NCBI GenBank assembly: GCA_021851405.1
Contig: JAJZDW010000020.1
Span: 1 to 64,000, forward strand
Direction of reading: 5' to 3'
DNA length: 64,000 nt
DNA from: Pseudomonadota bacterium
GTDB lineage: Bacteria > Pseudomonadota > Gammaproteobacteria > Steroidobacterales > Steroidobacteraceae
In this document: positions 41,740 to 57,645 of the stretch, piece after piece
Layout of the letters: each line of letters opens with the position of its first letter
Numbering within the stretch: position 1 is the stretch's first letter
Notes under the pieces: generated by a model
What the model saw: only the letters and a program-made list of their open reading frames with translations
What the model was told of the DNA's origin: nothing
Database searches by the model: none
Made by a program: the position numbers and the translations under genes

Positions 41740-42870
41740 ATGCCTGTGACGACCGATCGCACCCAATCGGATACCACCCGATACGCGCAGAACCTGCGCG
41801 ATGAGCTCGACGGCGCGGCACTCTATGCGGCGCTGGCGGAGGCCGAACGTGATCCGCTGCGGCGCGATCTGTTCAAGCAACTCGCGCAAGCCGAGTCGAA
41901 TCACGCCCAGGTGTGGCGCCAGAAACTCCTCGACGCCGGCCTTGAACCGAAGCGGTTCGCGCCGAGTCTGCGCACGCGGATCCTCTCCCGCCTGGCCCGG
42001 CGCTTCGGGACGGCGTTCGTGCTGCCCTCGATCGCGGCGGCGGAGTTTGCCGACCGCAACAAGTATGCCACACAGAAGGATGCCGCCGCGCTCGCCGCCG
42101 AGGAACGCGGCCATGCCGCAGTGATCGCGGCCGCCGCGGGGTCGAGCTGGCAGCCCGGAATGGCGATCGGGCAGGCCGAGCCGTGGCATCGCGGCGTCTC
42201 GGGCAACAACCTGCGGGCCGCGGTGCTCGGGGCGAACGACGGACTGGTGTCGAACTTCTGTCTGATGATGGGCATCGCGGGGGCGCGGACCTCGACCCAC
42301 ACCGTGCTGCTCTCGGGGCTCGCCGGACTGATTGCCGGTGCGTGCTCGATGGCGCTCGGGGAGTGGCTCTCGGTGAGCAACGCGCGCGACCTGGCGAAAA
42401 CCCAGCTCGCGCGCGAGCGCGAGGAGATCGAACAGACGCCGCAGGCCGAGCAGCACGAGCTGGCCCTGATCTATCAGGCCAAGGGGCTGCCCAAGGCGGA
42501 TGCCCAACGGGTCGCGGCCCAGATCATGGCGAGCGGCACCGCGGCGCTGGACACCCTCGCACGCGAGGAACTCGGCATCGATCCGCGCGAGCTCGGCGGC
42601 AGTCCGTGGGGCGCGGCAGGAACGTCGTTCGCACTGTTCGCCATCGGCGCGCTGGTGCCGGTGTTGCCGCTGTTCATTCTCACCGGCAGTCGCGCGGTGC
42701 TCGCCTGCGCGGCGGCGAGCGCAGCGGCACTGGCGGCAATGGGCGCCCTCACGGCGCTGTTCAACGGACGCACGGTGGCATTCTCGGCGGCTCGCCAGCT
42801 GCTGCTCGGTGCGCTCGCCGCGACGGTCACGTACGGGATCGGTACGTTGCTCGGCGCTTCCTTGGCCTGA
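41740..42870 (+). CDS. mbfA: MbfA-like membrane ferritin / VIT1-type iron exporter
   Basis: 376 aa. The N-terminal half is an erythrin (rubrerythrin-like) di-iron domain with LRDELDGAALYAALAEAE, QLAQAESNHAQVW and AALAAEERGHAAVIA, giving ExxH ligands. The C-terminal half is a VIT1/CCC1 membrane domain with LRAAVLGANDGLVSN, GACSMALGEWLSVSNA and several helices. MbfA proteins export iron and aid peroxide and low-pH survival in alphaproteobacteria. The context fits: dps and katG lie divergently upstream. It is slightly longer than the typical MbfA of about 330 aa. The ATG at 41740 has no strong ribosome site. Confidence 0.88.
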   Translation: MPVTTDRTQSDTTRYAQNLRDELDGAALYAALAEAERDPLRRDLFKQLAQAESNHAQVWRQKLLDAGLEPKRFAPSLRTRILSRLARRFGTAFVLPSIAAAEFADRNKYATQKDAAALAAEERGHAAVIAAAAGSSWQPGMAIGQAEPWHRGVSGNNLRAAVLGANDGLVSNFCLMMGIAGARTSTHTVLLSGLAGLIAGACSMALGEWLSVSNARDLAKTQLAREREEIEQTPQAEQHELALIYQAKGLPKADAQRVAAQIMASGTAALDTLAREELGIDPRELGGSPWGAAGTSFALFAIGALVPVLPLFILTGSRAVLACAAASAAALAAMGALTALFNGRTVAFSAARQLLLGALAATVTYGIGTLLGASLA

Positions 42871-43465: not shown

Positions 43466-43694
43466 GGTGCACACCGGAATGCGGTCGCGATCCCTCGGCG
43501 TTCGTCCCGTGCGTACGGCACAATGTGCTCAGGTCATTCGCATGCACCACACCGTCACACCCGCCATCGCCGATCGGAACGCCGCCGCACGGGCTGTGCG
43601 CCTCGCGGTTGCACCGCGTGTCACCGGTCCAATCGGCCGCGGCCGCACCCTCGCGCCCGCCCGTGCGGGGAGCCTCCCGAATCCCTCGGCCGCG

Positions 43695-46028
43695 ATGGGT
43701 GCCGCAATCCGCCGCACGGGCACGTGGGTGCGCTACGGGATTGCGGCCGTGGCGGGGGCGTCGCTCCTCGGCGGTGCGGCGCGGGCGCACGCCGGGCGCG
43801 CGCATTCGGCGCTGCGCGCCGTGATCGTCACCGCGCAGGGCGAGCGACAGCCGCTCACTGCGGTCCCTGAGAGCATCACGGTGTTCTCTGCGCGCACGCT
43901 GCGCGCGCTCGGGATCCACTCGTTTGACGATTACGCCAGCAAAACCCCGAACCTCTCGTTCGTCTACGGCGCGGGCTCGACCGGGATCTCCAACGCGCGC
44001 ACGGTCGCGATCCGGGGCATCGGCGGCCAGAACCTCTTCGGCACCTCAGGGGCCACCGGCTTTTACATCGACGACACGCCGCTGCCGGAATCGCTCAACC
44101 CGCGCATCATCGACGTGCGCCGGATCGAAGTGCTCAAGGGGCCCCAGGGCACGTTGTTCGGCGAGAGCTCCCTCGGCGGCACCGTGCGCATCATCTCCCG
44201 GCGCCCCGATCTGCACCGCGAATCTCTGCGCTACCGCGCCGATGCCGGGTTCACGGCCGGCGGCGGCAGCGCCGACGGCGGCGCGAGCGTGATTGCCAAC
44301 CTCGTGCTCGCGCCGGGCCGAATCGCCACGCGCATCGTGCTGTTCGGCAATCACGCGGCGGGATACCTCACCCGAACGTATCCGGCGCCATCGAGCCCCG
44401 GCACGACCGATCCGTACCTGCCGGTGCCGCGCACCCGCGTCGGCGATCAGGGCGCGAGGAGCATCTACGGCGGCTCGATGACCGCACGCATTCACCTGAG
44501 CGGCACGCTCGGCCTGCAGTTGCGGGTCATGGCGCAGGACACGCACTGGAAGGGCTTCCCGGCCGCCTTCGCGCCCCTGCCGGCCTTCACGCCGCGCTAC
44601 ACGCTCGATCGGGCGTTCAACGTCGAGTCCGGCGCCACCGATGCCTGGGTGCTGCCCTCGCTCGAGATCCACTGGCGAGCGGGCAAGGTGCGCCTGGTGA
44701 GCGCCACCAGCTACTTCTACCGACACAACCGCGACATCGAGGACTCGACCTACGGGACGCAGCAGATCCTCACGAGCTACTACGGCGTCACCGGGCTGCC
44801 CGCACAGCCGTTTCTCTGGGACCAGGAGCACTACGAGAACCAGTTCACCGAGGAGGTTCGCCTCGCCTTCAAACACGTGTGGGGCCTCAGCGGCACGTTC
44901 GGCGCGTTCTATGCGCGCACCCGCTCGGTGCTGGCGATTCCGCCGACCTACGCGCAGGGCCTCGTCAATGCCACGCGCACCAACACGGTGGTCGGCCCGT
45001 GGCCGAACGATTTGCTCTGGACCGATTACAATCCCGCCCTGCAGCGCGACATCGCGCTGTTTGGACAGTTGTACGTGCCGCTCGGGCACAACGTGACTCT
45101 CACGCTCGGTGCGCGCCAGTATTGGCTGCACCAGCGCTCCGACTTCACCGCCAATGGCTTCAATAATTTCGGTCCCACGCCGAGCGCCCCGCAGTCGAGC
45201 CGCCAGTCCGGCGTCAATCCGAAGCTCGCCCTGTCCTATCGGCTCGCACGCCACGCCCTGGTGTACGCCTCGGCGGCCGAGGGGTTTCGCGCCGGCGCGG
45301 CCCAAACCTACCTGCCGTTTTGCGCGCTGCCGACGCTGCCGATCGCTGACATCACCCACCTGAAATCCGACACGCTGTGGAGCTACGAGGTCGGCGGCAA
45401 GACACCCGTAGCCGACACCGGCCTGCTGCTGTCGGCGGCGGCCTTTCACATCGATTGGCGCAACCCCCAGCAACAGGTCGCCCTGCCCTGCGAGGCGATT
45501 TTTGACATCAACGGACGGCGCGCACTCATCAATGGCGGGGAACTCGAGCTCGAGGGGCACGTGAGCCCGCCGCTGCAGCTGCGCGCCGGCATCGGCTACG
45601 AGCACAGCGATATCAGCGAGCCCGGTCCGCTCGCCATCGTCGGGATCGAACCCGGATCGAGCGTGCTCGGCACCCCGGCCTGGACTGGCACGCTCTCGGG
45701 CGTCTACACCCGCTCCCTCGGCGCGCGGCTAGAGGGGTTTGTCGAAGCGGATGCCAGTTACACCGGTCACAGCCGTGCGCTGCTCAACGGCGGCAACGGC
45801 ACGTTCGCGATCCGCGGCTCGTACGTGCTGGTCGATTTTCGCCTCGGGGTGCGCCGCGCGCACAGTGCGGTGTCGATCAACGTGCGCAACGCCACCAACG
45901 CTCGCCCCAATCTCGGCGACATCGGGTACATCGGCTACGCGCAATACACGCCCGGGGGGACCGTGATCCCGCAGGTCGCCACGCTGGAGCCGCTGACGGT
46001 GCTGCTCGAGTACCGGCATCGGTTCTGA
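43695..46028 (+). CDS. TonB-dependent receptor
   Basis: 777 aa from the ATG at 43695, which gives a normal signal peptide (VRYGIAAVAGASLLGGAARA). A longer start at 43542 would add about 50 unusual residues. The TonB box is LRAVIVTAQG; plug motifs are AVPESITVFSARTLRALGI, YIDDTPLPESL and VLKGPQGTLFGESSLGGTV. The barrel ends with LLEYRHRF, ending in the aromatic residue needed for BAM insertion. No STN domain is present. The substrate is unknown. It is convergent with the glycosyltransferase end of the YnjBCD operon. Confidence 0.9.
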   Translation: MGAAIRRTGTWVRYGIAAVAGASLLGGAARAHAGRAHSALRAVIVTAQGERQPLTAVPESITVFSARTLRALGIHSFDDYASKTPNLSFVYGAGSTGISNARTVAIRGIGGQNLFGTSGATGFYIDDTPLPESLNPRIIDVRRIEVLKGPQGTLFGESSLGGTVRIISRRPDLHRESLRYRADAGFTAGGGSADGGASVIANLVLAPGRIATRIVLFGNHAAGYLTRTYPAPSSPGTTDPYLPVPRTRVGDQGARSIYGGSMTARIHLSGTLGLQLRVMAQDTHWKGFPAAFAPLPAFTPRYTLDRAFNVESGATDAWVLPSLEIHWRAGKVRLVSATSYFYRHNRDIEDSTYGTQQILTSYYGVTGLPAQPFLWDQEHYENQFTEEVRLAFKHVWGLSGTFGAFYARTRSVLAIPPTYAQGLVNATRTNTVVGPWPNDLLWTDYNPALQRDIALFGQLYVPLGHNVTLTLGARQYWLHQRSDFTANGFNNFGPTPSAPQSSRQSGVNPKLALSYRLARHALVYASAAEGFRAGAAQTYLPFCALPTLPIADITHLKSDTLWSYEVGGKTPVADTGLLLSAAAFHIDWRNPQQQVALPCEAIFDINGRRALINGGELELEGHVSPPLQLRAGIGYEHSDISEPGPLAIVGIEPGSSVLGTPAWTGTLSGVYTRSLGARLEGFVEADASYTGHSRALLNGGNGTFAIRGSYVLVDFRLGVRRAHSAVSINVRNATNARPNLGDIGYIGYAQYTPGGTVIPQVATLEPLTVLLEYRHRF

Positions 46029-46057: not shown

Positions 46058-46759
46058 TCAGCGGCCGTAGAGCTTCGCCAGCACCCGCGGCGACACTCCG
46101 AGGAAATAAAGCGTGAGACAGCCGAGATTGCGCCCACTGCGGCGGTACCAGCCGTCCCGCTGCCACCGTTCGGCGGAGGTGCGTGCCGATGCCGGCAGGA
46201 CCGACAGACGCCGCCGGCCGATGCGCCGCACCAGCTCGACGTCTTCCATCAGAGGGAAGGTCTGATAGCCGCCGAGGCCATGGTAGAACGCCCGGTGCAC
46301 GAGCAGACCTTGATCGCCGTAAGCGAGCCCCAAGGTGCGCACCCGCCAGGCGACGGCACGCTCCAGACGACGCGCCCGCGCACTGGGATCATCGAGTGCG
46401 AAGCGAAAGGTCGCCGCACGGTCGTGACTCGGCGCCCGCGCGATGAACGCCCGCACCGCCGCACGCCACTCTTCGCTCAGCACCGTATCGGCGTGCAGAA
46501 ACAGCAGCCACTGCCCGCGGGCCTGCAGCGCACCCTGGTGCAGCTGGATGCCGCGCCCCCGTGGAGCGACCACGACGCGCGCGCCGCTCTGGGTGGCGGT
46601 CGCGACGGTCCCATCGGCCGACCCGCCGTCCGCGACGATGATTTCGAGCGCACCGGCGCAGGCCGCGAGTGTCGCAGGCAAGTCACGTGCAGCATTCAGT
46701 GTCGGGATGATGACCGACACGTCGAGGAGAGGGCCAGCGGACTCATTCACGGCGGGCAC
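46058..46759 (-). CDS. TIGR04283-type family 2 glycosyltransferase
   Basis: 233 aa from a GTG at 46759. GT-A fold motifs are visible: VSVIIPTLNAARDLPATL, EIIVADGGSADGT, GRGIQLHQGA, the DxD-like LFLHADT and FPLMEDVELVRR. This matches the 'rSAM/selenodomain-associated transferase 2' family, named because it co-occurs with radical SAM proteins. It is the last gene of the rSAM-YnjBCD-flavoprotein operon, 16 bases after the flavoprotein gene. Donor and acceptor are unknown. Confidence 0.84.
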   Translation of the reverse strand: MPAVNESAGPLLDVSVIIPTLNAARDLPATLAACAGALEIIVADGGSADGTVATATQSGARVVVAPRGRGIQLHQGALQARGQWLLFLHADTVLSEEWRAAVRAFIARAPSHDRAATFRFALDDPSARARRLERAVAWRVRTLGLAYGDQGLLVHRAFYHGLGGYQTFPLMEDVELVRRIGRRRLSVLPASARTSAERWQRDGWYRRSGRNLGCLTLYFLGVSPRVLAKLYGR

Positions 46760-46775
46760 GGCCGGTCACGGCCGG

Positions 46776-48194
46776 TCACGGCAAGCGCAACAGCAGACGC
46801 ACCAGCCGCCGCGGCCCGGGACTGAAGAGCTTCGGGGCCAGGAGCGCGCTGGCGCTCGCCTTGGCAATCTCCCCCAGCGTCGGGTACGGGAAGATCACCC
46901 CGCTGAGCGCGCCGAGGCGCAGCCGGCGGGTGATGGCAAGCCCCCACAGTCCGATCAGTTCCCCGGCGTGCGCCCCGAGCAGATCGGCACCCAGCACCCG
47001 GCCGCGCCGATCCGTGATCACCTTGATGCCGCCGCGGGCCACGCCTTCGGCGCGCGCGCGGTCGTTCGCGGCGAAATCCGCCCGCACCACCTGGACGCCC
47101 GATCCGTGGCGCTCACGGGCCTCGCGTTCCGTCATCCCGACGTGTGCCAGCTCCGGATCGGTGTAGGTCACCCACGGCAGCGCCCGGTAGTCGACCCGGG
47201 CGGGCAGACGAAACAGTGCATTGCGGATCACGATACCCGCCTGATAGCCCGCCACGTGCGTGAACTGTGGCGGCCCGAGGACATCCCCGAGCGCGTAAAT
47301 GCGCCGATTCGTGGTGCGCAGCCGAGCGTCGACGGTGATGCCGTCAGGTCCGTACGCGACCCCCGCGCGCTCGAGCCCGAGTCCGTCGATCCGCGGCGCG
47401 CGGCCCGCGGCCACGAGCAGGTGCGAGCCGTGCACCTCGGACCCGTCGGCGCAGCGAACCTGCAGGGACGCGCCGGTGCGGGCGAGCGCACTCACCGCGG
47501 TCTGTTCGCAGACCCTGACTCCCTCGCTGCGCAACTGCTCGCGCAGGAGGGCGGCGAACTGCGGATCATCGCGCGGCAGCAGCGTGGCGCGCTCGAAGAG
47601 CGTGACGCGGCTCCCGAGACGCACGAACGCCTGCGCCATTTCGACCCCGATCGGACCGCCGCCGAGGATCAAGAGATGCTCCGGGCGCTCGGTCAATTCG
47701 AACAGTGTCTCGTTGGTGAGGGCCCCGAGCCCCTCGAGACCGGCGATCGGCGGCTGTACCGCGGAGGATCCGGTCGCGATCACGCAGCGCCGGGCGCGCA
47801 CCGTGACGCCCCCGCCGCTGATCTCGTCGCGTCCGGTAAAAGTCGCGCTGGCGCGGATCACCCGCACGCCCAGACCCTCCAGGCGCTCGACTGAATCATG
47901 CGGCGCAATCTGGGCAATCACGCCGTGCACATGACGCATGATGGCCGCAAAGTCGACGGCCCCGGTCGTGGCCGCGACGCCGAGGTGCGTCGAGTGCCTA
48001 CTGGTGTGGGCCGCGTGCGCCGCCGCGAGCAGCGCCTTGGAGGGCACGCAGCCGTAGTTCAGGCAGTCCCCGCCCATCGCGCCGCGCTCGAAGAGCACGG
48101 TGCGCGCACCGAGCTGTACCGCGCCCACCGCGACCGACAATCCGCCGGCACCGGCACCGATCACGCACAGATCGCATTCGAGTACCGCAGTCAT
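46776..48194 (-). CDS. Mercuric-reductase-like flavoprotein disulfide oxidoreductase
   Basis: 472 aa, class I pyridine nucleotide-disulfide oxidoreductase. FAD site: DLCVIGAGAGGLSVAVGA. Redox-active pair: GGDCLNYGCVPSK. NAD(P)H site: HLLILGGGPIGVEMAQAF. Second FAD motif: RIYALGDVLGPP. The dimer interface reads FPYPTLGEIAKASA near the end, where mercuric reductase and lipoamide dehydrogenase have an essential His; here a Tyr-Pro-Thr is present instead. There is no N-terminal HMA domain and no C-terminal vicinal Cys pair as in MerA. The substrate is unknown. Its ATG overlaps the ynjD stop. Confidence 0.88.
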   Translation of the reverse strand: MTAVLECDLCVIGAGAGGLSVAVGAVQLGARTVLFERGAMGGDCLNYGCVPSKALLAAAHAAHTSRHSTHLGVAATTGAVDFAAIMRHVHGVIAQIAPHDSVERLEGLGVRVIRASATFTGRDEISGGGVTVRARRCVIATGSSAVQPPIAGLEGLGALTNETLFELTERPEHLLILGGGPIGVEMAQAFVRLGSRVTLFERATLLPRDDPQFAALLREQLRSEGVRVCEQTAVSALARTGASLQVRCADGSEVHGSHLLVAAGRAPRIDGLGLERAGVAYGPDGITVDARLRTTNRRIYALGDVLGPPQFTHVAGYQAGIVIRNALFRLPARVDYRALPWVTYTDPELAHVGMTEREARERHGSGVQVVRADFAANDRARAEGVARGGIKVITDRRGRVLGADLLGAHAGELIGLWGLAITRRLRLGALSGVIFPYPTLGEIAKASASALLAPKLFSPGPRRLVRLLLRLP

Positions 48195-48937
48195 CGCCCA
48201 CCCCCTTTGGTCTCTAGCTCCGCTTGCGCCATGGCGCGATCGCCCGTGCGCCCCTCGGCGCCCACCCGTTCGATGAACGTCGTGGCGGACGCATCGGTCC
48301 GCAGCGCCAGCACCGTTCCGCCCGCGGCCTCGGCATCGGCCACATCGTGGGTCACGAGCAGGACCGGTAAGGCGGCCGCGGCCGCGTGCGCGAACACGAA
48401 TCGCCGAAACTCCGCCCGCAAGGCCGCATCGAGCCTGTTGAACGGCTCATCGAGCAGCAACACTTGCGGCTCGGCGAGCAACAGTCGCAGCAGCGCCACA
48501 CGCGCGCGCTGCCCTCCGGAGAGCGTGGCCGGATCGCGCGGCGCGAAGCCCTCGAGCCCGGCTTGCGCCAGGACTGCTGCGATGCGGGCCGTGCGTGCGC
48601 GGCGGCCGCGCACCGTGCGCGCCAGAGCGAACGCCAGGTTCTCACCCACGGTCAGATGAGGAAAGAGCAGATCATCCTGGAACAGCGTCCCAATCCGGCG
48701 CCGCTCGGCCGGGAGCGTCGTGACCTCGCGCGCGCCCACCCAGATCCGCCCGCACGCGCGGAACGGGCCGGCGAGCGTGCCACCTAAGAAACTCAGCACG
48801 GTCGATTTGCCCGCGCCGCTCGGCCCCATCAACGTCAGCACCGTCCCGGGCGGCACCTGCTCGGTCAGCGGCGGAATGAGCACGCGCCCGTCCAGGACGA
48901 TCGAGACCTGCTCCAGACGCAACGCCGCGTCGCTCAC
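48191..48937 (-). CDS. ynjD: ABC transporter ATP-binding protein, YnjD-like
   Basis: 248 aa from the GTG at 48935-48937, overlapping the permease stop as GTGA. It is a complete nucleotide-binding domain: Walker A GPSGAGKST, Q-loop TLFQDDLLFPHLTVGEN, signature LSGGQRARVALLRLLL, Walker B VLLLDEPFNRLD and switch His VTHDVADAE. It pairs with the YnjC-like permease and YnjB-like binding protein upstream. The E. coli YnjBCD importer's substrate is not known; its operon includes a sulfurtransferase gene (ynjE). Its stop overlaps the flavoprotein start (ATGA). Confidence 0.88.
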   Translation of the reverse strand: MSDAALRLEQVSIVLDGRVLIPPLTEQVPPGTVLTLMGPSGAGKSTVLSFLGGTLAGPFRACGRIWVGAREVTTLPAERRRIGTLFQDDLLFPHLTVGENLAFALARTVRGRRARTARIAAVLAQAGLEGFAPRDPATLSGGQRARVALLRLLLAEPQVLLLDEPFNRLDAALRAEFRRFVFAHAAAAALPVLLVTHDVADAEAAGGTVLALRTDASATTFIERVGAEGRTGDRAMAQAELETKGGGR

Positions 48938-50679
48938 GAGATACTCCCCGCCCGCCACGGGCCGCGCTTCAGTCGTGGCACCAGAACCGCGAGCCCATAC
49001 CCGGCGAGCGGGAGGACGGATTGCAGCACGGCGAACACTCCGGTGACGCGCCGATCACCACCGCTTGCGAGCGTCACCGCTTCGCTCGTCAGCGTCACGA
49101 CCCGTCCGGCGCCGGCAAAGATCGTGGGCAGGTACTGATCGATGCTGACAGCGACACCCACGGCGGCGGCCACCAGCACGGGCCGCAGCAGCAGCGGCAG
49201 TTTGATGCGCAGAAATACGCGTGCAGGGGAGCTGCCGAGCGCAAGCGCCGTGCGCGCGTAACGCGGATCGAGCGCCCGCCACGGATCGGACAGCGACAGA
49301 AACACGTACGGCAGCACGAACAGCAGGTGCGACCAGATCACGGCCAGCAGCGTCCCGTCGAGACGCAGGACCGTGAACAACACCTGCGTGCCGAACAGGA
49401 ACGCGATCTGCGGCACGAGCAGCGGCACATAGAGCAGCCACAACATGCGCGAGCGCACCGGCGCACCGCACCGCTGCTCCTGCTCGAGACAGGCCAGCAC
49501 GAGCAGCAGCGCCGCGGCACTGGCGGCGGCGGCCACCAGGAGCGTCGTGCCGAGCGGCCAGAGGATCGTCCCGGCCTGCTGGTGCCACACCGCACCGCTC
49601 CAGCGCTGCGGCAGAAGGTCCGGGAAGCGCCACACGGCCGCCACAGACCACACCGCCAGCGCGAGCAGCGAGGACGCCCCGAGCAGCATGAGCCCGCCGA
49701 CGACACCGCGCGCGAGTGCCGCAAGGGGCTCCAGCACACTGTGGCGCGCGCCCCGCGCGATCCACCGGCGAGCGAGACTCGCGATCAGCACTTCCCCGGC
49801 GCGCCACGCGGCAATGCTGGCCGCGACGATACCGAGCTGCAGCAGCGCGGCGGCCGCCGCTGGAAAATACATCTGCACGTGCGGCGAACTGAACCAACGC
49901 AGCGCCAGTACGCTCAGCGTCGGGGGGTTGCTCGGACCGAGGATCAGCGCCATGTCGACGACCGAGAGCGCATACGCGAGCACCGCGTAGATCGGCAGGC
50001 GCAGCTGTGCATAGAGTTGCGGCAGCACGAGTTTCAGCCACGCGCTGGTGCGTCCGTAGCCGAGCGCCGCGGCGACCTCAAGCTGACGGCGCGCCGGGAC
50101 TTGGCCGAGGGCACTGAGACTCATCAGCAGCAGGTAGGGAATTTCCTTCACCAGCAATCCCACGGTGAGCGCGATGCCGTAGGGATCCTGGACGGTGGCG
50201 ATGTCCGGCGGCTGATGCCAGCCGGTGAGCCACGGAGAGAGCAGGCGCACGATCCAGCCGCTCGGCGCGAGCAGAAATCCGACACCGATCGCCATCGCCG
50301 CGTGCGGCGCGGCGAGGATCGGCCCCATGAGCCCGCGAACGAGGCGTCCGGGCGGCCGGTGCGACAGATGCGCACAGCAACCGAACGTCAGAACGACGGC
50401 CAGAATCGTCGCACTCAGGCCGCTCATCAGCGTCAGACCGACGGCGGTGCCGAAACCCGGCGCGGCCCAAAGCGCGCGCCACGGGGAGAGCGTCCAGTGC
50501 CGCGGGTGAAGTCCCGGCAACCACCCGAACGCCGGCAGCGCCGTGCCGAGCAGCCCCGCGCCGATTGGCACGAGAAACAACGCCACGGTGATTCGCGGCG
50601 CATGTCGCAGCCAGGCGCGCGGACGCCTGCCGTCATCGGCCCGCTGCGCTCGCGCTGCAAGTGTCACGCCGCCCGTCAC
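48934..50679 (-). CDS. ynjC: ABC transporter permease with two fused domains, YnjC-like
   Basis: 581 aa from the GTG at 50677-50679, which overlaps the binding-protein stop (TGA in GTGA). The open frame is longer upstream but runs inside ynjB. It has about 12 transmembrane helices and two BPD-type permease halves in one chain, like ThiP and YnjC. EAA-type loops appear around EVAAALGYGRTSAWLKLVLP and ARTALALGSSPARVFLRIKL. E. coli YnjC is about 70 residues shorter. It would form the channel for the YnjB substrate. Confidence 0.86.
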   Translation of the reverse strand: MTGGVTLAARAQRADDGRRPRAWLRHAPRITVALFLVPIGAGLLGTALPAFGWLPGLHPRHWTLSPWRALWAAPGFGTAVGLTLMSGLSATILAVVLTFGCCAHLSHRPPGRLVRGLMGPILAAPHAAMAIGVGFLLAPSGWIVRLLSPWLTGWHQPPDIATVQDPYGIALTVGLLVKEIPYLLLMSLSALGQVPARRQLEVAAALGYGRTSAWLKLVLPQLYAQLRLPIYAVLAYALSVVDMALILGPSNPPTLSVLALRWFSSPHVQMYFPAAAAALLQLGIVAASIAAWRAGEVLIASLARRWIARGARHSVLEPLAALARGVVGGLMLLGASSLLALAVWSVAAVWRFPDLLPQRWSGAVWHQQAGTILWPLGTTLLVAAAASAAALLLVLACLEQEQRCGAPVRSRMLWLLYVPLLVPQIAFLFGTQVLFTVLRLDGTLLAVIWSHLLFVLPYVFLSLSDPWRALDPRYARTALALGSSPARVFLRIKLPLLLRPVLVAAAVGVAVSIDQYLPTIFAGAGRVVTLTSEAVTLASGGDRRVTGVFAVLQSVLPLAGYGLAVLVPRLKRGPWRAGSIS

Positions 50680-51881
50680 GGGGTGTAGCGCCGCTCCCAG
50701 GCGGCTGCGAGCCGCACGGCCCACGAGGGATGCGGCTCGGGCAGCACGTGGCGCAGTGCCGCCGGCGGCGGCATCCACGGATCCTTCGCCTGCGCCTGAA
50801 ACCGGGCGCGTTGCGCATCGGTGAGCGCCTTCAGATCGAGCACCGTGGGTCCGCCGAGGGCGCGAATCTCCCCCGCCCGGGCCTGGGCGGCGGGCGAGAG
50901 CAGAAAATTGGCCACCACCATCGCCCCGGCCTTGTGCCGGGCGTTGTAGGGAATCGCCACGAAGCTCGCGTTGCCGAGCGTGCCGCCGCGCAGCACCACG
51001 GTGCGCACGCTCTTGGGCAGCCGTCCGGCGAGCACCGCGGCCGCCGCCGATGCCGGATCGAACGAGGGCATCAGGTCGATCTCCCCATCCTCGAGCAGCT
51101 GCCGTTCGGCCGGACCGCTCGCCGGATACTCCCGGCCGTGGCGCCACAGATAGGGCCGCAGTTGCGCGAACCACGCCCACAGCGGCGCGCTCGCCTGCGC
51201 GAAGGCGGCCGGGGTCACCGGCCGCAGCAGGACCGCCGGATTGGGCGCAAGCGCATAGAGCGCCTGCTCGAGAAACGCCACACCGAGGAAATTCTGCACC
51301 TGCGGAAACGTGAACCGCCCGGGATGACGGCGCGCCCAGGCCGGAAACGCGCGAATATCGAGCGGCACGTGTTTGACGTACGCAGAGTCATAAACAAACA
51401 CCAACTGCGCGGTGCGCCAGGGCGACTCGTAACCGTCGACCGGCACGGTGAAGTCGTAGCGGATCTCGGGATCGGAGCGGCGCACCAGCCGATCGTTTGG
51501 CAGCCGCTGGGCGAACGGACCGTAGAGCAGACCCCGGCGCTTCAGCGCATCGAAATTCGGACCGTTGATCCAGATCAGATCGATGGTTCCGGCGTGGTTC
51601 TGGCCGGCCGCCTTCTCGGCGATGACCTGGGTCACGGCCTGCGCGGTGTCCTCGAGCGGCACCTCACGCAGCGTCACGTCACAGCAGGCCGCGACCTGAC
51701 GTGAGACCCACGCGATGTAGGCATTGACGCGCTCACTGCCGCCCCAGGCGTCGAAGTAGACGTGCTGGCCGCGTGCCCGCGCCAGGACGCTCGGCCAGTT
51801 CGAGGCGGCCGCAGGGCGCATCGCGAGCAGCCCGAGCAGCGCACCGACCGCCACCGCTCGCCTCGCCACCGGCGCTCTCAT
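50676..51881 (-). CDS. ynjB: ABC transporter substrate-binding protein, YnjB-like
   Basis: 401 aa from the ATG at 51879-51881 (ATGA with the radical SAM stop). A Sec signal peptide (ARRAVAVGALLGLLAMRPAAA) is followed by a type 2 periplasmic binding-protein fold: HVYFDAWGGSERVNAYIAWV, IDLIWINGPNFDALKRRGLL, FTVPVDGYESPW and FPQVQNFLGVAFLEQAL. These strings match the YnjB group rather than iron or thiamine binding proteins. The ligand is unknown. It is followed by the permease with a 4-base overlap. Confidence 0.86.
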   Translation of the reverse strand: MRAPVARRAVAVGALLGLLAMRPAAASNWPSVLARARGQHVYFDAWGGSERVNAYIAWVSRQVAACCDVTLREVPLEDTAQAVTQVIAEKAAGQNHAGTIDLIWINGPNFDALKRRGLLYGPFAQRLPNDRLVRRSDPEIRYDFTVPVDGYESPWRTAQLVFVYDSAYVKHVPLDIRAFPAWARRHPGRFTFPQVQNFLGVAFLEQALYALAPNPAVLLRPVTPAAFAQASAPLWAWFAQLRPYLWRHGREYPASGPAERQLLEDGEIDLMPSFDPASAAAAVLAGRLPKSVRTVVLRGGTLGNASFVAIPYNARHKAGAMVVANFLLSPAAQARAGEIRALGGPTVLDLKALTDAQRARFQAQAKDPWMPPPAALRHVLPEPHPSWAVRLAAAWERRYTP

Positions 51882-52945
51882 CGCGACGCGCCCCGTGCGG
51901 CGGCACGACGGGCCCGGGCGGCTTCGATCACCGGGGCGAGCACGTCCTGATGAAATCGGTCGCAGCCGATGCACAGGTTCGCGTACGGTTGGCCTTGGGG
52001 GGTGAGTGTGCGCGAGGCCTCGATGAACCGCTCTTCGCTCCAACCATAGGCGAGCCCCATGCGCTGCGGCTGTCCGGAGGAGATCGCCGCATACGCCGGC
52101 TCCTGCGTCAGGGAGTCGAGGATGCCGAGCAGATCCTCCTCCAGCAGATTGCCAATCGGCAGGCGCGTTTTGATGCAGCACGGAAACACGTTGCCGGCCG
52201 GATCAATGGACACCTCCGAGCCGCTGTAGCGGTGCTCGAGGAACTTCAGCCCCCCCGACCAGCGGTTGCAGAAATTATCCGCAAGCGTCGCCGTCGAGAG
52301 GCCGTTGTCCCACGCCCGACCCCGCGGCCACAGCCGCCCGATCCAGGTATCCGGCGTCGCGCCGAAGAAATTGTAGGTCGGGCCGGCCGGTCGTGGTGCC
52401 GGGTCCGTGGCGGACACCGGAGCCCTCGCGCTGCGCAGTCCGTGGGCCTCGAGCAAACGCGCGAGGCGCTCCTTGAAGGCGCGCTGGCGCGACTCGCCCT
52501 GCATGCCGGTGTGGAAATCATCCACCCCGGAGACCGAAAGCGTCGTCAGGCCGCGGGCGAGCAACTCGTCCACGATGGTCCCGGTGAGCAGATCCCCGGT
52601 GGTCTGCACGATCAGTTCCACGCCCGGTTGCCGTCGATATCGCTCCTGGAGGCGCTGCATCGCCGGATACAGCACGCGCTCGCGCAGCGCATCGAGCAGC
52701 ACCTCCCCGCCGGCGAGAATGATCCGACCGGGACGCTCCACCAGGCTGCCGTCGGGCGCCGGATGTTCCCGGTCGAGATAACTCAGGCGCGGCGGAAGAT
52801 GATCGATGACGCGCGGGACATTCTCTTCAGCCTCGGCCACCACCGCCTCGAGTGCCGAGCGCACGTAGGGGCGAAACCGAGGCTCGTAGCAGTGCCGGCA
52901 CTTGCGATGGCACGCCCAGGACACCACGTAATAAATCGATTCCAC
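51878..52945 (-). CDS. Radical SAM protein leading the YnjBCD operon
   Basis: 355 aa from a GTG at 52943-52945. The frame is open further upstream, but that part is antisense to bufA and lacks similarity. The SAM-cluster motif CHRKCRHC gives Cys12, Cys16 and Cys19. A GGE-like AGGEVLL, a long middle domain ([18 protein letters not shown]) and a Cys-rich end ([24 protein letters not shown]) suggest an auxiliary [4Fe-4S] cluster of SPASM/twitch type. The substrate is unknown. No precursor peptide is obvious next to it apart from divergent bufA. The tight coupling to an importer, a flavoprotein and a GT2 suggests a small-molecule pathway. Confidence 0.82.
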
Positions 52946-53096
52946 TTCAGTCGCACCACATCCGCTTGATCCGTTCCCGACGCGCCGATCCCACCGCGGG
53001 CCGCACAGCGCAACGAGCCGGCACATATTGCACGCTTGCCGCGCCGTACACGAGAGGCCCGGCGGTGCGCCCGTCTCGCGAGCGCCTCCCGGGTCC

Positions 53097-53122
53097 GTAA
53101 CCTTTGGGCGCCCCGGCTCGAA
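53097..53122 (+). promoter_or_regulatory. SigF (ECF16)-type promoter of the bufferin operon
   Basis: GTAACC at 53097-53102 and CGAA at 53119-53122 are separated by 16 bases. This is the consensus known for the Caulobacter copper- and oxidant-responsive ECF sigma factor SigF, which controls bufferin operons. It lies about 77 bases before the bufA ATG. Confidence 0.75.
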
Positions 53123-53198
53123 TATAGCAACAGTACCTGTGCGCCACCCCAGCCGGCGACGTACGGGTCGATCGATCCACCCATTGGGAGACCTCTTC

Positions 53199-53549
53199 AT
53201 GACCACCCGTACCGCATCGCTGGCCGTCGCCGGCGCACTCGCCACCGCCGTCACCGCCCTTGCCGCGCCGCTCGCCAGCGCCGGCGGCATGTCGATGACG
53301 CCACGCCAGCACACCATGGCCGAGCTGCACACCGGAAAATTCGTGCGCTGCTTCGGGGTCGCGCTCGCCGGGCACAACGACTGCTACGCCGGACCCGGCA
53401 CCACCTGCGCCGGCACGGCGAGCCGCAACTACCAGGGCAACGCGTTCAAACTGGTGCCGACGGGAACCTGCACGGCGATCACCACCCCGTACGTCACGAT
53501 CGTCCAGGGCCACGGCAGTCTCAGCAAGATCACCGAGGCCGGCCGCTGA
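53199..53549 (+). CDS. bufA: Bufferin precursor peptide BufA (DUF2282)
   Basis: 116 aa from the ATG at 53199, with GGGAG 9 bases upstream. An N-terminal signal peptide (about residues 1-28, ending LASA) is followed by a Cys-containing core with Cys51, Cys62, Cys70 and Cys91, in [27 protein letters not shown] and VPTGTCTAI. This matches DUF2282 bufferin peptides, whose core cysteines are turned into thiooxazoles by a DUF692 enzyme to give a copper-binding, exported peptide. The bufB and bufC genes follow. The tail after Cys91 ([17 protein letters not shown]) is longer than in typical members. Confidence 0.87.
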
Positions 53550-53575
53550 GCGGCACAGTCTGAGCCGTCCGCCCG

Positions 53576-54487
53576 GTGAGCACCGTCATGTCCGTGTCCC
53601 ATACCGCGCCCCGGGGCCCAAGCCCCGACGCCGTCCCCGCGCGGGCCGGCGTCGGGCTGAAGGCCGCCCATTACCGCGTGATCCTCGAATCCCGCCCGCC
53701 GCTCGGGTTCTTCGAGGTGCATGCCGAGAACTACATGGGAGCCGGCGGTCCGCCGCATCGCTACCTGACGGAGATTCGCACCCACTACCGGCTCTCCGTG
53801 CACGGCGTGGGACTGTCGATCGGCTCGGCGGGACCGCTCGACGAGCCACACCTGCGCCGCCTGGCGGCACTCGTGCACCGTTATGAGCCGGAACTCGTCT
53901 CCGAACACCTCGCGTGGTCGTCACACGGCGGCGCGTTCTTCAACGATCTGCTGCCGCTGCCGTACACCGCCGAGACGCTCAGGCGCGTATGCGAGCACCT
54001 CGAGCAGGTGCAGGAGCACCTCGGCCGCCAGATCCTCCTCGAGAACCCCTCGACCTATGTCGCCTTCGCCTCCAGCAGTTACGCCGAAGCGGACTTCATG
54101 GCCGAAGTGGCGCGCCGCAGCGGCTGTGCGCTGTTGCTCGACATCAACAACGTCTACGTCGCCTGCACCAACCAGCAGTGCGATCCTCTGCAGTACCTCG
54201 CGCAGTTTCCCCTCGCCGCGGTGCGCCAGATCCACCTCGCCGGGTGTGCCACCGACGCCGACGAACAGGGCCGAGCGCTCCTGATCGACAGCCACGATCG
54301 GGAAGTCGCCGATCGCGTCTGGTTCCTCTACGAGCACGTGCTCGCCCGCCGCGGAGCGGTGCCGACGTTGATCGAATGGGACCAGAACGTACCGGCGTGG
54401 GATCCGCTCGCCGCGCAGGCCGCGCGTGCCGATCGGGCGCTACACGCCTGCACTCTGCAGGATCGCCGCCATGTTGCCCTGGGCTGA
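53576..54487 (+). CDS. bufB: Multinuclear iron oxidase BufB (DUF692/MNIO)
   Basis: 303 aa from a GTG at 53576; an ATG 12 bases on (53588) is also possible. MNIO metal-ligand motifs are complete: VHGVGLSIGS, VSEHLAWS, ILLENPSTY, LLLDINNVYV, QIHLAGC, DSHDREV and TLIEWDQNVP, on a TIM barrel. Enzymes of this family oxidise Cys in RiPP precursors; in bufferin systems BufB makes thiooxazoles in BufA. It follows bufA by 26 bases and overlaps bufC by 17 bases, so all are co-expressed. Confidence 0.93.
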   Translation: MSTVMSVSHTAPRGPSPDAVPARAGVGLKAAHYRVILESRPPLGFFEVHAENYMGAGGPPHRYLTEIRTHYRLSVHGVGLSIGSAGPLDEPHLRRLAALVHRYEPELVSEHLAWSSHGGAFFNDLLPLPYTAETLRRVCEHLEQVQEHLGRQILLENPSTYVAFASSSYAEADFMAEVARRSGCALLLDINNVYVACTNQQCDPLQYLAQFPLAAVRQIHLAGCATDADEQGRALLIDSHDREVADRVWFLYEHVLARRGAVPTLIEWDQNVPAWDPLAAQAARADRALHACTLQDRRHVALG

Positions 54488-55262
54488 GCTGCAGGAGCAG
54501 CTCGCCGCGGCGCTGCGCGATCCTGAGCGTGCGCCGCCCGCCGAGTGCATCGGTCCGGACGGGGCTCGCGCCACGAAGCGCTTCGCCGTGTACCGCAACA
54601 ACGTGTTCGCCGGGCTGATCGACGCCCTCGCCGAGAGCTATCCGGCGGTGCACCGACTCCTCGGCGTGGAGTGTTTCGAGGAGACTGCGCGGCGCTATGT
54701 CTCGCAGCACCTGCCCCGCTCCCCGGTGCTGCTCGAGTATGGCGAGCGGTTCTCTGAGTTCCTCGAACAGCTCGAGCCGCTCGCGGCGCTGCCTTACCTC
54801 GCGGACGTGGCACGCATCGAGCGCGCCTGGCTCGAGGCCTATCACGCACCCGAGGCACCGGCACTCGACCCCGGTGCCCTGGCAGGAATTCCCGCACACC
54901 GCGCCGCGGACCTGTGCTTCACGCTGCATCCATCGGTCCGCCTGGTGCGCTCGCGCAGTGCGGCCGTGACGATCTGGGGGCTGAACGTTGCGCCGCCTCC
55001 CTGGGCGAGTCTGCCGCCCGATCCGATCGCCGAGAGTGCGCTCCTGGCGCGTCCGGCGGCCGAGGTCGAGGTCGTATGCCTCACGCCCGGCGCGGCGGAG
55101 TTCTTAGCCGCGCTGGCCGGCGGCCTTACGCTCGGGGAGGCCTCAGAGCGCGCACGGAGCGTTCACGACACCTTCCATCTCACCGAACACTGCACCGCTC
55201 TGCTCGGGGGCGGCTGGGTCACGGCCGCGCATCTGAGGCGGCGCCGCACACGAGGTCATTGA
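54471..55262 (+). CDS. bufC: BufC, DUF2063 DNA-binding-domain-type partner of BufB
   Basis: 263 aa from the ATG at 54471. It begins LPWAELQEQLAAALRDPERA, with FAVYRNNVFAGLIDALAESY (the DUF2063 core), then YLADVARIERAWLEAYHAPE and a C-terminal winged part. In known systems DUF2063 proteins bind the precursor and deliver it to the DUF692 enzyme, despite the family's DNA-binding label. The gene starts inside the end of bufB and is followed after 3 bases by doxX. Confidence 0.92.
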   Translation: MLPWAELQEQLAAALRDPERAPPAECIGPDGARATKRFAVYRNNVFAGLIDALAESYPAVHRLLGVECFEETARRYVSQHLPRSPVLLEYGERFSEFLEQLEPLAALPYLADVARIERAWLEAYHAPEAPALDPGALAGIPAHRAADLCFTLHPSVRLVRSRSAAVTIWGLNVAPPPWASLPPDPIAESALLARPAAEVEVVCLTPGAAEFLAALAGGLTLGEASERARSVHDTFHLTEHCTALLGGGWVTAAHLRRRRTRGH

Positions 55263-55265
55263 GTC

Positions 55266-55781
55266 ATGTCCACCCGCACCCTGCCCCGGCCGTATGGCCT
55301 TGTTCCGCTCGTGCAGCACCGCGTCTCGGCGGCGCTCGAGCGGCTTCAGCTCGGCGCACTCGCGCTCGCACCGCCGCTGGTGCGCCTGGCGCTGGCGATC
55401 CCGTTCCTGAAGTCCGGCCTGACCAAGTGGAGCGGCGGGTGGCACGTCTCCCCGGTGACGGATTTTCTCTTCGAGTCGATGTTCCGCCTGCACGTGCTCG
55501 GGCACCGCTATCCGTTCCCCGCGCCCGATGCGCTGGCGCACCTCGACGCGGTGGCGGAAGTTCTCTTGCCGGTGCTCCTCATCGTGGGCCTTGGCACACG
55601 CCTCAGCGCCCTCGCGCTGCTGGTCATGACCGGCATCATTCAGCTCACCGATCCGACCGGGTGGGCCAATTTTCACCTGCCCTGGGCCGCCCTCGCCCTC
55701 GCCCTCCTCGCGCTCGGCCCCGGCAAGGCCTCGCTCGATTTCGCCCTCGCGCGCGTGCTGCGAGCGCGCGCGGCGCGGTAA
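55266..55781 (+). CDS. DoxX-family membrane protein of the bufferin operon
   Basis: 171 aa with four transmembrane helices. Family strings are LALAIPFLKSGLTKWSGGW, VAEVLLPVLLIVGLGTRL and IIQLTDPTGWANFHLPWA. DoxX genes are a regular fourth member of bufA-bufB-bufC operons; the role is not settled, possibly quinone- or oxygen-linked support of maturation or copper handling in the membrane. It starts 3 bases after bufC. Confidence 0.88.
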   Translation: MSTRTLPRPYGLVPLVQHRVSAALERLQLGALALAPPLVRLALAIPFLKSGLTKWSGGWHVSPVTDFLFESMFRLHVLGHRYPFPAPDALAHLDAVAEVLLPVLLIVGLGTRLSALALLVMTGIIQLTDPTGWANFHLPWAALALALLALGPGKASLDFALARVLRARAAR

Positions 55782-56173: not shown

Positions 56174-57361
56174 TCAGCGCCGCCCGTAGAAGCCCGGCCG
56201 CGATGCTGCGCGCGCCTCGGCCCCCGCCGGCGGCCGATAGACCCCCGCGGCGCGCGCCATGAGCAGGTACTCTCGAAACACCGCATTGGTCTGCGCTTCG
56301 TGCTCGCTCACGGTCGAGCGGTCGAGCGGATCGAAGAAGCAGGTCGGATCCTCGCCCATGACATCGCCGCTGTGGAAATAGGCCATCGCCCGGCAGCCGC
56401 CGCAGGTGTACTGATACCGGCAGCGGCCGCAGCGACCCTTCAGGCCCGAGCGATCCGTGATCGTGGCGAATAGCGTACTGTCCGCCACCAGCTCATCGAG
56501 CGGCTGGCGACGCACGTTGCCGGCACTCAGCGCATCGAGCAAGACCGGACAGATCGACACCTCGCCCTCGGCGTTGATCGTGAGCCAGGTACCCGCCCAG
56601 CACCCGATGGCCGGATTCTGCGGCACGGTGCGGTTGCAGGCCCCGCCGGACACCTGCGCGTGCAGTTCCGGGGAGAGAAAAAATGGTGTGTAACTGACGT
56701 AGCCGTGCGGACTGCGCCGCAGCGCGGGGTGAAAATGATCGCGCAGATCGTCCCGGTCGAAGCCCAGGTGCGCAAAGCATTGCGCGCCCGAGCCGCGCGG
56801 CACCAAGGGCGAGCGGTTGTACGCAATGTTGTGCTTGACGATGAACTCGATGGTTTTATCAAAGCTCTCGGTATTGTATTTGCCGATCGTGACGACGACG
56901 TGCTGGCCGATGCCAAGCTCCATGCAGTCGCGCAGCACCGCGAGGGTACGGCCGGATTCGCTGTCGCGGCTCCATTGATTCTCCTCGTCGACTGAGTTCA
57001 GTCCGACGACGATGCGGGCCTGCCCCCCGGTGACTTCGCGGATGCGCTCGAGGCGCTCTCGGGTGAGCTTCGCGCAGTTGCTGAGCACCGAGCAGCGATA
57101 GCCCAGATCCGCCGTCAGGCGCAGCAGCTCGAAGGCATCCTTGCGCAGCAGAAATTCCCCGCCGCTCCAGCCGATGGTGTGCACGCCGAGTCGGCGCGCC
57201 GGCAGCAGGATGCGCGCACGGATCTCCTCGAGCGTCAGCTCATTCAGAACGCTCGCGCGCAGCTGTTTGGGCTTGTTGCTGCCGGTCATGCAGAACCGGC
57301 AACGCAGATTGCAGCGGCGCGTCGCCTCGAAGTACACGACCTGAAACTGGTACGGCGCCAT
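56174..57361 (-). CDS. Radical SAM/SPASM-domain protein
   Basis: 395 aa from the ATG at 57359-57361, with GGGAGGGA 6 bases upstream; longer frames upstream lack similarity. The SAM-cluster motif is CNLRCRFC (Cys17, Cys21, Cys24), with WSGGEFLL next. The C-terminus holds a full SPASM set: CNRTVPQNPAIGCWAG, ISICPVLL, CGRCRYQYTCGGCRAMAYF and PTCFF, ligands for two extra [4Fe-4S] clusters. Such enzymes usually modify peptides. No obvious small precursor lies beside it; the nearest peptide genes belong to the bufferin operon 2 kb away. The target is unknown. Confidence 0.87.
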   Translation of the reverse strand: MAPYQFQVVYFEATRRCNLRCRFCMTGSNKPKQLRASVLNELTLEEIRARILLPARRLGVHTIGWSGGEFLLRKDAFELLRLTADLGYRCSVLSNCAKLTRERLERIREVTGGQARIVVGLNSVDEENQWSRDSESGRTLAVLRDCMELGIGQHVVVTIGKYNTESFDKTIEFIVKHNIAYNRSPLVPRGSGAQCFAHLGFDRDDLRDHFHPALRRSPHGYVSYTPFFLSPELHAQVSGGACNRTVPQNPAIGCWAGTWLTINAEGEVSICPVLLDALSAGNVRRQPLDELVADSTLFATITDRSGLKGRCGRCRYQYTCGGCRAMAYFHSGDVMGEDPTCFFDPLDRSTVSEHEAQTNAVFREYLLMARAAGVYRPPAGAEARAASRPGFYGRR

Positions 57362-57645
57362 GGAAATCCCTCCCGAGGGCTCCCGATGTTGATAATGCGG
57401 ACCGCCTCCAGGTGTCAACGCCGAAGTACGTCGAAGGCGAGGAATGTCAGTGTGCGCCGCCGCCCGCGGGTGCAGCGCCTGCGCTCTTGATAGAGCGCCG
57501 CGCGCCGATCGGGTGGTGCGTGCCTGAACCTCATCGACCCACTCGGCGCCCCGGGCGCGCACCGGGGGAGCGCCCGGCGGTTCACCGGGACCTGCCGTTG
57601 GTGCTCGCAGGGGGTGTGCTAGGCTCCTCGGGCGCATCCTGACGC

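Follow-up and report, generated by a model that had tools for sequence, protein, structure and literature searches.

The window analyzed in this study, a stretch of 64,000 nucleotides from a Steroidobacteraceae bacterium (assembly GCA_021851405.1, contig JAJZDW010000020.1), carries a six-gene operon in which a radical S-adenosylmethionine (SAM) protein, hereafter rSAM, precedes a YnjBCD-type ATP-binding cassette (ABC) importer, a flavin adenine dinucleotide (FAD) oxidoreductase and a family 2 glycosyltransferase (GT2). Genome comparisons revealed that rSAM and a following ynjBCD recur together as a unit, and that rSAM genomes mostly carry the TIGR04283/TIGR04282 pair without the radical SAM enzyme ArsS. 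The unit is real, and it differs from the known cassette by its importer and by a different radical enzyme. Because the synteny recurs, the glycosyltransferase pair accompanies rSAM and ArsS is mostly missing there, we tentatively favor a view of the operon as an import-fed variant of the TIGR04282/TIGR04283 cassette, known chiefly from the surroundings of ArsS; we regard this view as quite possible. The features concerned are as follows.

51878..52945, minus strand: radical SAM protein (rSAM), 355 aa, CX3CX2C at C12/C16/C19
50676..51881, minus strand: YnjB, periplasmic solute-binding protein (NF008633/PRK11622)
48934..50679, minus strand: YnjC, ABC permease, 581 aa, sub-threshold BPD_transp_1 match
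48191..48937, minus strand: YnjD, ABC transporter ATPase, by family scan
46776..48194, minus strand: FAD/pyridine nucleotide-disulfide oxidoreductase, CX4C redox motif (GGDCLNYGCVPSK)
46058..46759, minus strand: GT2 glycosyltransferase, TIGR04283, profile score over cut-off
43467..46028, plus strand: TonB-dependent receptor, convergent on the operon and linked to it in the home genus
52946..53198: intergenic region shared by the rSAM operon and a divergent bufferin operon

All six minus-strand open reading frames (ORFs) between 52945 and 46058 were confirmed, with junctions exactly as the original prediction had given them: four-nucleotide overlaps of ATGA at 51878-51881, GTGA at 50676-50679, GTGA at 48934-48937 and ATGA at 48191-48194, and a gap of 16 nt (46760-46775) between the FAD and GT2 genes. 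The GTG start of rSAM at 52945 (MESIYYV) and its length of 355 aa were identical in five same-genus homologues. That these genes belong together, as had been proposed, was borne out by recurrent synteny and overlaps across loci. The linked set proved larger than the six genes first named, with the TonB receptor and sometimes a TIGR04282 gene added to it.

A scan of GTDB genomes with an rSAM alignment gave 87 loci, the best 80 of which (51-87% identity) were analyzed; these are labelled Alpha-, Beta- and Gammaproteobacteria, Acidobacteria and Bacteroidota. Twelve (L018-L027, L084 and L095) were assigned to the home genus by at least 70% identity and shared layout. Among the 68 loci outside it, the sequence continues for 4 kb or more past rSAM in 57, and in 46 of these ynjB, ynjC and ynjD follow rSAM in order on the same strand, in loci labelled Alpha-, Beta- and Gammaproteobacteria and Bacteroidota; two more have ynjB and ynjC only. 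The four-nucleotide rSAM/ynjB overlap was found in 8 of 17 chosen distant loci. In Roseovarius and certain other alphaproteobacterial loci, rSAM and ynjB are separated by a gene for an aminoglycoside phosphotransferase (APH)-type kinase. Two distant loci have a gene split over two frames by assembly error or decay (YnjB at L083:12581-13320 and rSAM at L092:1747-2848). The metagenome bin titled Klebsiella pneumoniae (L042) is probably mistitled; the closest company of its YnjB on the tree is that of uncultured Gammaproteobacteria, apart from the enterobacterial YnjB of E. coli.

Within the home genus, the complete six-gene order was present in 9 of 10 loci with enough contig (L027 had neither FAD nor GT2 gene), ynjB, ynjC and ynjD in all 11 with room for them, and the rSAM/ynjB overlap in 10 of the 11 scored (the start in L019 was unclear). 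The TonB receptor converges on the operon in all 10 loci whose contig extends that far. Some places were entered under two identifiers (L011 = L024, L013 = L084, L014/L026 and L015/L027). YnjB was searched separately in 30 genomes, among which were 18 further genomes of the genus, several of these incomplete. This gave close homologues (64-77% identity) in G006 (two copies), G010, G011 and G012, and weak matches only, near E 1e-5, in three further genomes. The loci of G006, G011 and G012 retain the TonB receptor, GT2, FAD, YnjD, YnjC, YnjB and rSAM genes, and that of G010 has the TonB receptor, YnjBCD and rSAM, with a haloacid dehalogenase-like ORF (judged from sequence) in place of FAD and GT2. 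Genome G006 holds two full operon copies on different contigs (L012, L013). Of the linkage originally predicted, then, rSAM-ynjBCD stood as recurrent, but among the best 80 loci the six-gene order was found in the home genus only.

A TIGR04282/DUF2064 gene was present in three of the nine GT2-bearing home-genus scan loci (L024, L084 and L020). It lies between the GT2 and TonB genes in three distinct sister places (L011 = L024, L012 and L013 = L084), and in L020 it follows GT2, as judged by coordinates; no such gene follows GT2 in L014, L018, L019 or L095. In the window genome the sole TIGR04282 match is outside the window (C26), and at 130.7 bits is just below the cut-off of 134. Since a TIGR04282 gene follows GT2 in some sister operons, the operon may once have had seven genes.

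The window GT2 had been labelled 'rSAM/selenodomain-associated'. Its family was confirmed (TIGR04283, 214.8 bits against a cut-off of 182, profile positions 1-221 of 221), but NCBIfam now names that family 'arsenosugar biosynthesis glycosyltransferase', and the known cassette to which this name points had gone unnamed. TIGR04283 and TIGR04282 are the steadiest companions of rSAM. TIGR04283 was over its cut-off in 42 of 50 rSAM genomes (the count covers 50 of the 80), and in 37 of 45 when the five home-genus ones were left out, as against 142 of 398 genomes in a sample of the phylum. TIGR04282 was matched in 53 of 55 genome entries and over cut-off in 44 (G010 = G779, entered twice), and in GT2 loci from 20 rSAM genomes DUF2064 was beside or fused to GT2 in 16. 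ArsS was found in just 1 of 50 rSAM genomes. Some loci bring these genes together: L081 and L083 have the order GT2-DUF2064-rSAM-APH-ynjB-ynjC, and L092, with no ynjBCD on its contig, has GT2, DUF2064, rSAM, APH, FAD and VTT genes on mixed strands. An amidohydrolase neighbor in L081, L083 and L087 bears a weak likeness to 5'-deoxyadenosine deaminase and exceeded a cut-off only as the unnamed PRK08204; it was not used.

In the phylum sample YnjB was over its cut-off in 51 of 398 genomes, and eight genomes had both YnjB and TIGR04283 over cut-off. In five of the eight (G000, G393, G470, G691 and G772, four being one family) the two lie within 5 kb of each other, and in G624 they are ~10 kb apart. 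The module from G393 (L131), which is without rSAM, reads APH-ynjBCD-GT2-DUF2064-TVP38/FAD fusion. ArsS (TIGR04167) was searched in 80 chosen genomes, comprising 44 of the 51 with YnjB and 36 of the 134 with TIGR04283 but no YnjB over cut-off. It was present in none of the 44 and in 18 of the 36. Among 30 genomes with TIGR04283 but no YnjB, rSAM occurred in two (G634 and G700) and in none of the nine that had ArsS.

Part of a review (PMC12159101) describes adenosylation of arsenic by a radical SAM enzyme in oxo-arsenosugar biosynthesis, and the initial steps of that route are credited to ArsS with ArsM in a passage of another paper (PMC8552651). Home genome G000 (97.4% complete) gave no ArsS match at E 1e-20 or better, and its best ArsM match (NF008823) scored 55.2 bits, below the cut-off of 263. 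Plain membership in arsenosugar biosynthesis was rejected on these grounds, and because the home genome lacks both enzymes over cut-off, 'arsenosugar' is here a family label and not a demonstrated product. The ArsS cassette (TIGR04167, TIGR04282, TIGR04283, TVP38/FAD) nevertheless resembles the operon in sharing the GT2 family, its glycosyltransferase partner, a related FAD protein and a radical SAM enzyme of some kind. Of six ArsS-GT2 loci, L170, L171, L173 and L175 also hold a TVP38/FAD fusion, GT2 and DUF2064, and L172 and L174 do not; the order in L170, L171 and L173 is DUF2064-GT2-TVP38/FAD-ArsS, with GT2 and FAD as neighbors much as they are in the window. The FAD-GT2-DUF2064 genes of the fuller sister operons are thus frequent ArsS neighbors, having been seen in four fetched ArsS loci. 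The radical SAM family of the ArsS cassette is different (operon rSAM against one ArsS gave BLAST E 0.024 over 20 residues), and the ABC importer and TonB receptor are additions of the window operon.

Homologues of methylthioadenosine (MTA) phosphorylase were found in 4 of 40 fetched GT2 loci, beside the glycosyltransferase pair in L148 and L184 and beside ArsS in L171 and L173. Enzymes of this type cleave 5'-modified adenosines, and their presence would be consistent with an intermediate carrying a deoxyadenosyl group or with the removal of 5'-deoxyadenosine. In L184 (3217-10637) the TIGR04282/TIGR04283 pair, FAD and VTT genes accompany a third, different radical SAM protein of 322 aa; the MTA phosphorylase there (TIGR01694) scored 290.6 bits against a cut-off of 274.85, and an Nterm_to_SelD-like protein was below cut-off.

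No NCBIfam profile matched rSAM over cut-off, and a search of plasmids gave no match. An evenly drawn class sample contained it in 1 of 369 genomes, its own; the family is therefore rare. Its Pfam radical SAM score was below the cut-off (25.4 against 29.5), but the CX3CX2C cysteines C12, C16 and C19 are kept in all 58 aligned members and the structural model matches radical SAM folds. SPASM (PF13186) passed narrowly over residues 243-278 (22.3 bits against a gathering cut-off of 21.5). The SPASM domain has a seven-cysteine motif for two auxiliary clusters. That motif is not present in rSAM, in which only C226, C256, C257, C325 and C328 are invariant (58/58) outside the radical motif; since only these five are, the pattern likely reflects the radical cluster and one auxiliary Fe-S cluster. 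By sequence there was no convincing solved relative (best E 0.37). The model, built with 58 sequences (pLDDT, the predicted local distance difference test, 89.5), had EpeE as its best fold match (Z 16.6, root-mean-square deviation (rmsd) 3.8, 261 aligned) and BtrN as the next (Z 14.9, rmsd 3.2, 215 aligned); viperin-like enzymes and anSME followed, their Z values lying between 13 and 14. EpeE and BtrN are the closest solved folds, but they share 11-18% identity with rSAM over the aligned part and differ in genetic context. The modelled fold favors hydrogen abstraction and analogy with the cassette favors adenosylation; both options stand for this predicted chemistry.

The importer was confirmed by family scan as the binding-protein-dependent transporter that had been predicted. 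YnjB scored 466 bits against a cut-off of 203 (NF008633/PRK11622). YnjC gave 24.3 bits for BPD_transp_1 on residues 408-536, slightly under the Pfam cut-off of 26.4, and both of its halves had weak phosphonate/polyamine-permease matches. The YnjB model (pLDDT 92.5) shows the usual two lobes of a binding protein. All 1000 chains in its fold comparison had Z of at least 8, and among the 50 matches listed, binders of maltose, cellobiose, glycerophosphocholine, a dinucleotide and sulfoquinovosyl-glycerol fell within 2 Z units. Foldseek placed on top an untitled Salmonella solute-binding protein and binders of metal-citrate, polyamine, sugar-phosphate, ferric ion and thiamine. The TonB receptor is possibly the outer-membrane part of the import route. 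The ydjXYZ-ynjABCD region of E. coli K-12 (with ynjE and ynjF), whose function is likewise unassigned, resembles the operon in its ynjB-C-D order and has DedA-family neighbors (ydjX, ydjZ) as a further point of likeness. That stretch lacks rSAM, the FAD oxidoreductase and GT2, all three of which the operon has, and adds ferredoxin-type, AhpD-like, sulfurtransferase and cytidine diphosphate (CDP)-alcohol phosphatidyltransferase proteins. An FNR regulon table gives its products as predicted proteins, along with a predicted transporter (PMC3688515), and a passage on a Marinobacter clade describes YnjBCD as an uncharacterized transport system enriched there (PMC9207381).

Uptake genes of other kinds were observed beside rSAM as well. 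In an acidobacterial locus (L060:6597-15343) a PhnT2/PotA-like ATPase and a PotB-like permease, all below cut-offs, lie upstream of rSAM, with DUF2064 and then an OMP_b-brl_4 outer-membrane barrel (TonB plug match slightly below cut-off) downstream; in L067 a homologue of the L060 binding protein adjoins rSAM; and in L082 (10001-12323) the rSAM gene, without ynjBCD, overlaps that of a concentrative nucleoside transporter. Because these loci pair rSAM with other transporters, they suggest that rSAM goes with uptake of its substrate.

The flavoprotein had been described as mercuric-reductase-like, which was not supported. Its score for MerA (TIGR02053) was 372.5 bits, short of the 454.45-bit cut-off. 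MerA carries a C-terminal vicinal cysteine pair, and the window protein, which keeps the CX4C motif, ends LVRLLLRLP without one. Mercury reduction as the theme of the operon was rejected on these two results. Homologues in other loci are fused to, or stand beside, TVP38/VTT. Overall, the original prediction was supported in part, in its unit and importer family; the mercuric-reductase likeness was not supported and the arsenosugar-type cassette had been overlooked.

In the import-fed cassette that we favor, the TonB receptor and YnjB would capture a scarce small organic ligand, and YnjC and YnjD would carry it into the cytosol. There the 5'-deoxyadenosyl radical of rSAM would oxidize or epimerize the ligand, or the deoxyadenosyl group would be attached to it. 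The FAD enzyme may handle electrons or a thiol, and GT2 and a TIGR04282 partner, whose gene lies elsewhere in the genome, would form a sugar conjugate; some relatives have an APH-type kinase as well. In the ArsS version the radical enzyme acts on an arsenical that the cell itself makes; the operon's substrate would come from outside.

Several observations weigh against this proposal. TIGR04283 is itself a common family (142 of 398 phylum-sample genomes), and of the 68 loci outside the home genus just 7 (L030, L034, L035, L081, L083, L087 and L092) have GT2 in the fetched stretch around rSAM, which spans at most 10 kb on either side. When TIGR04283-positive genomes alone are compared, ArsS is in 0 of 8 with YnjB vs 18 of 36 without, a small sample for which the Fisher P of 0.014 ignores kinship and is a rough guide. 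Of the 18 further genomes of the genus, several of them incomplete, only four have a close YnjB homologue. No ligand class stands out from the YnjB fold, in which sugar, polyamine and metal binders were not separated, and a ligand assignment on that basis was rejected. YnjBCD is common, but mostly without rSAM: none of 30 fetched phylum-sample YnjB loci had rSAM within ~1.5 kb of YnjB, and rSAM was anywhere in only 1 of 50 YnjB genomes (G658, on another contig). Conversely, rSAM is without ynjBCD in 9 of the 57 loci (L031, L033, L060, L080, L082, L085, L086, L092 and L096). Because each occurs without the other, the importer and the enzyme are able to function separately. Six changes of the rSAM label are required on the YnjB tree (84 rows), at least four of them forced by starred branches. 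Given this weak reverse link and these repeated changes, the importer is the older element, and rSAM is a recurring addition and no fixed part of it.

Other explanations draw on the same data. The fold matches to EpeE and BtrN would suit rSAM being an oxidoreductase or epimerase of that fold acting on an imported sugar, cyclitol or glycoside in a catabolic or salvage route, with FAD and GT2 loosely connected; YnjB gives good alignments to binders of glycosides (best Z 28.4, rmsd 2.9, 332 aligned), and the invariant C226, C256, C325 and C328 could well hold a single auxiliary cluster. However, fold ranks show no function, YnjB matches of several ligand classes fall within 2 Z units, and the frequent TIGR04283/TIGR04282 of rSAM genomes is left unexplained, so that we consider this route somewhat unlikely. 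A peptide substrate of the kind used by EpeE was also considered. A bolder form of the cassette reading, with the MTA-phosphorylase homologues and the L082 nucleoside transporter as its hints, has rSAM as an ArsS replacement that would join 5'-deoxyadenosyl to, or rebuild, an imported organic or metalloid ligand. This would be a second radical SAM route into the TIGR04282/TIGR04283 pathway, yielding a new class of 5-deoxyribosyl or glycosyl natural product with an imported core; we think it unlikely.

Scavenging of organo-arsenic or other organo-metalloid compounds, in which a foreign arsenosugar-like or methylarsenical compound is imported and remodelled by the arsenosugar cassette, would account for the NCBIfam names of GT2 and its partner and for the resemblance to ArsS loci. 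Bufferin genes are metal-linked, and 7 of 12 home-genus loci, as well as L050, have them next to the module; bufB homologues are also near ynjBCD in L144 and L189 and near the ArsS cassette in L175. Set against this are the lack of ArsS and ArsM over cut-off in the home genome, the fact that no arsenic gene was recognized in the operon, and our judgement that the NCBIfam names may reflect no more than association; scavenging is quite unlikely. About equally improbable is a lipid head-group or lipid-linked sugar pathway, whereby an imported alcohol would be phosphorylated (APH), activated (CofC-like DUF2064) and transferred to a lipid (CDP-alcohol phosphatidyltransferase, TVP38, GT2). A CDP-alcohol phosphatidyltransferase cluster, one member of which was Pfam-scored, is near ynjBCD in 10 of 20 non-rSAM loci, ynjF adjoins the ynjBCD region in E. 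coli K-12, APH is in 9 of the 68 rSAM loci outside the genus, and VTT/TVP38 occurs in both settings; yet the CDP-alcohol enzyme had no match at E 1e-6 or better in the 80 rSAM loci and none in the window operon.

The window holds further genes near the operon. The divergent bufferin operon (53097-55781, plus strand) comprises a small bufA-like gene with no NCBIfam match, the multinuclear non-heme iron-dependent oxidative (MNIO) maturase bufB (383.9 bits against a cut-off of 310), and, short of the NCBIfam cut-offs, genes resembling bufC and DoxX/HvfX. A GTAACC-N16-CGAA site at 53097-53122 (plus strand), which we take to resemble a SigF-type promoter, faces bufA and not the rSAM operon; it occurs once in the window, where 0.08 occurrences are expected. 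Bufferins were considered as part of the mechanism and kept as a side note only, with bufB near rSAM in just 1 of 68 loci outside the genus. A second radical SAM/SPASM protein at 56174-57637 (minus strand) is NirJ2/AhbD-like, below cut-offs, and has homologues near the bufferin operon in 4 of 12 home-genus loci. A VIT1-family protein at 41740-42870 (plus strand) matches ferritin-like proteins weakly at its N-terminus and is also weakly similar to the iron exporter MbfA.

The expectation that no known pathway covers this gene set agreed with the open-access literature (most subscription papers and all bioRxiv preprints fall outside that scope), in which no paper describes such a pathway, joins YnjBCD with a radical SAM protein or names TIGR04283. 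Our data tie YnjBCD, an orphan transporter also present in E. coli K-12, to a radical enzyme and to a glycosyltransferase pair that is little described in this literature, and indicate that many genomes lacking ArsS carry families which NCBIfam names for arsenosugar biosynthesis.

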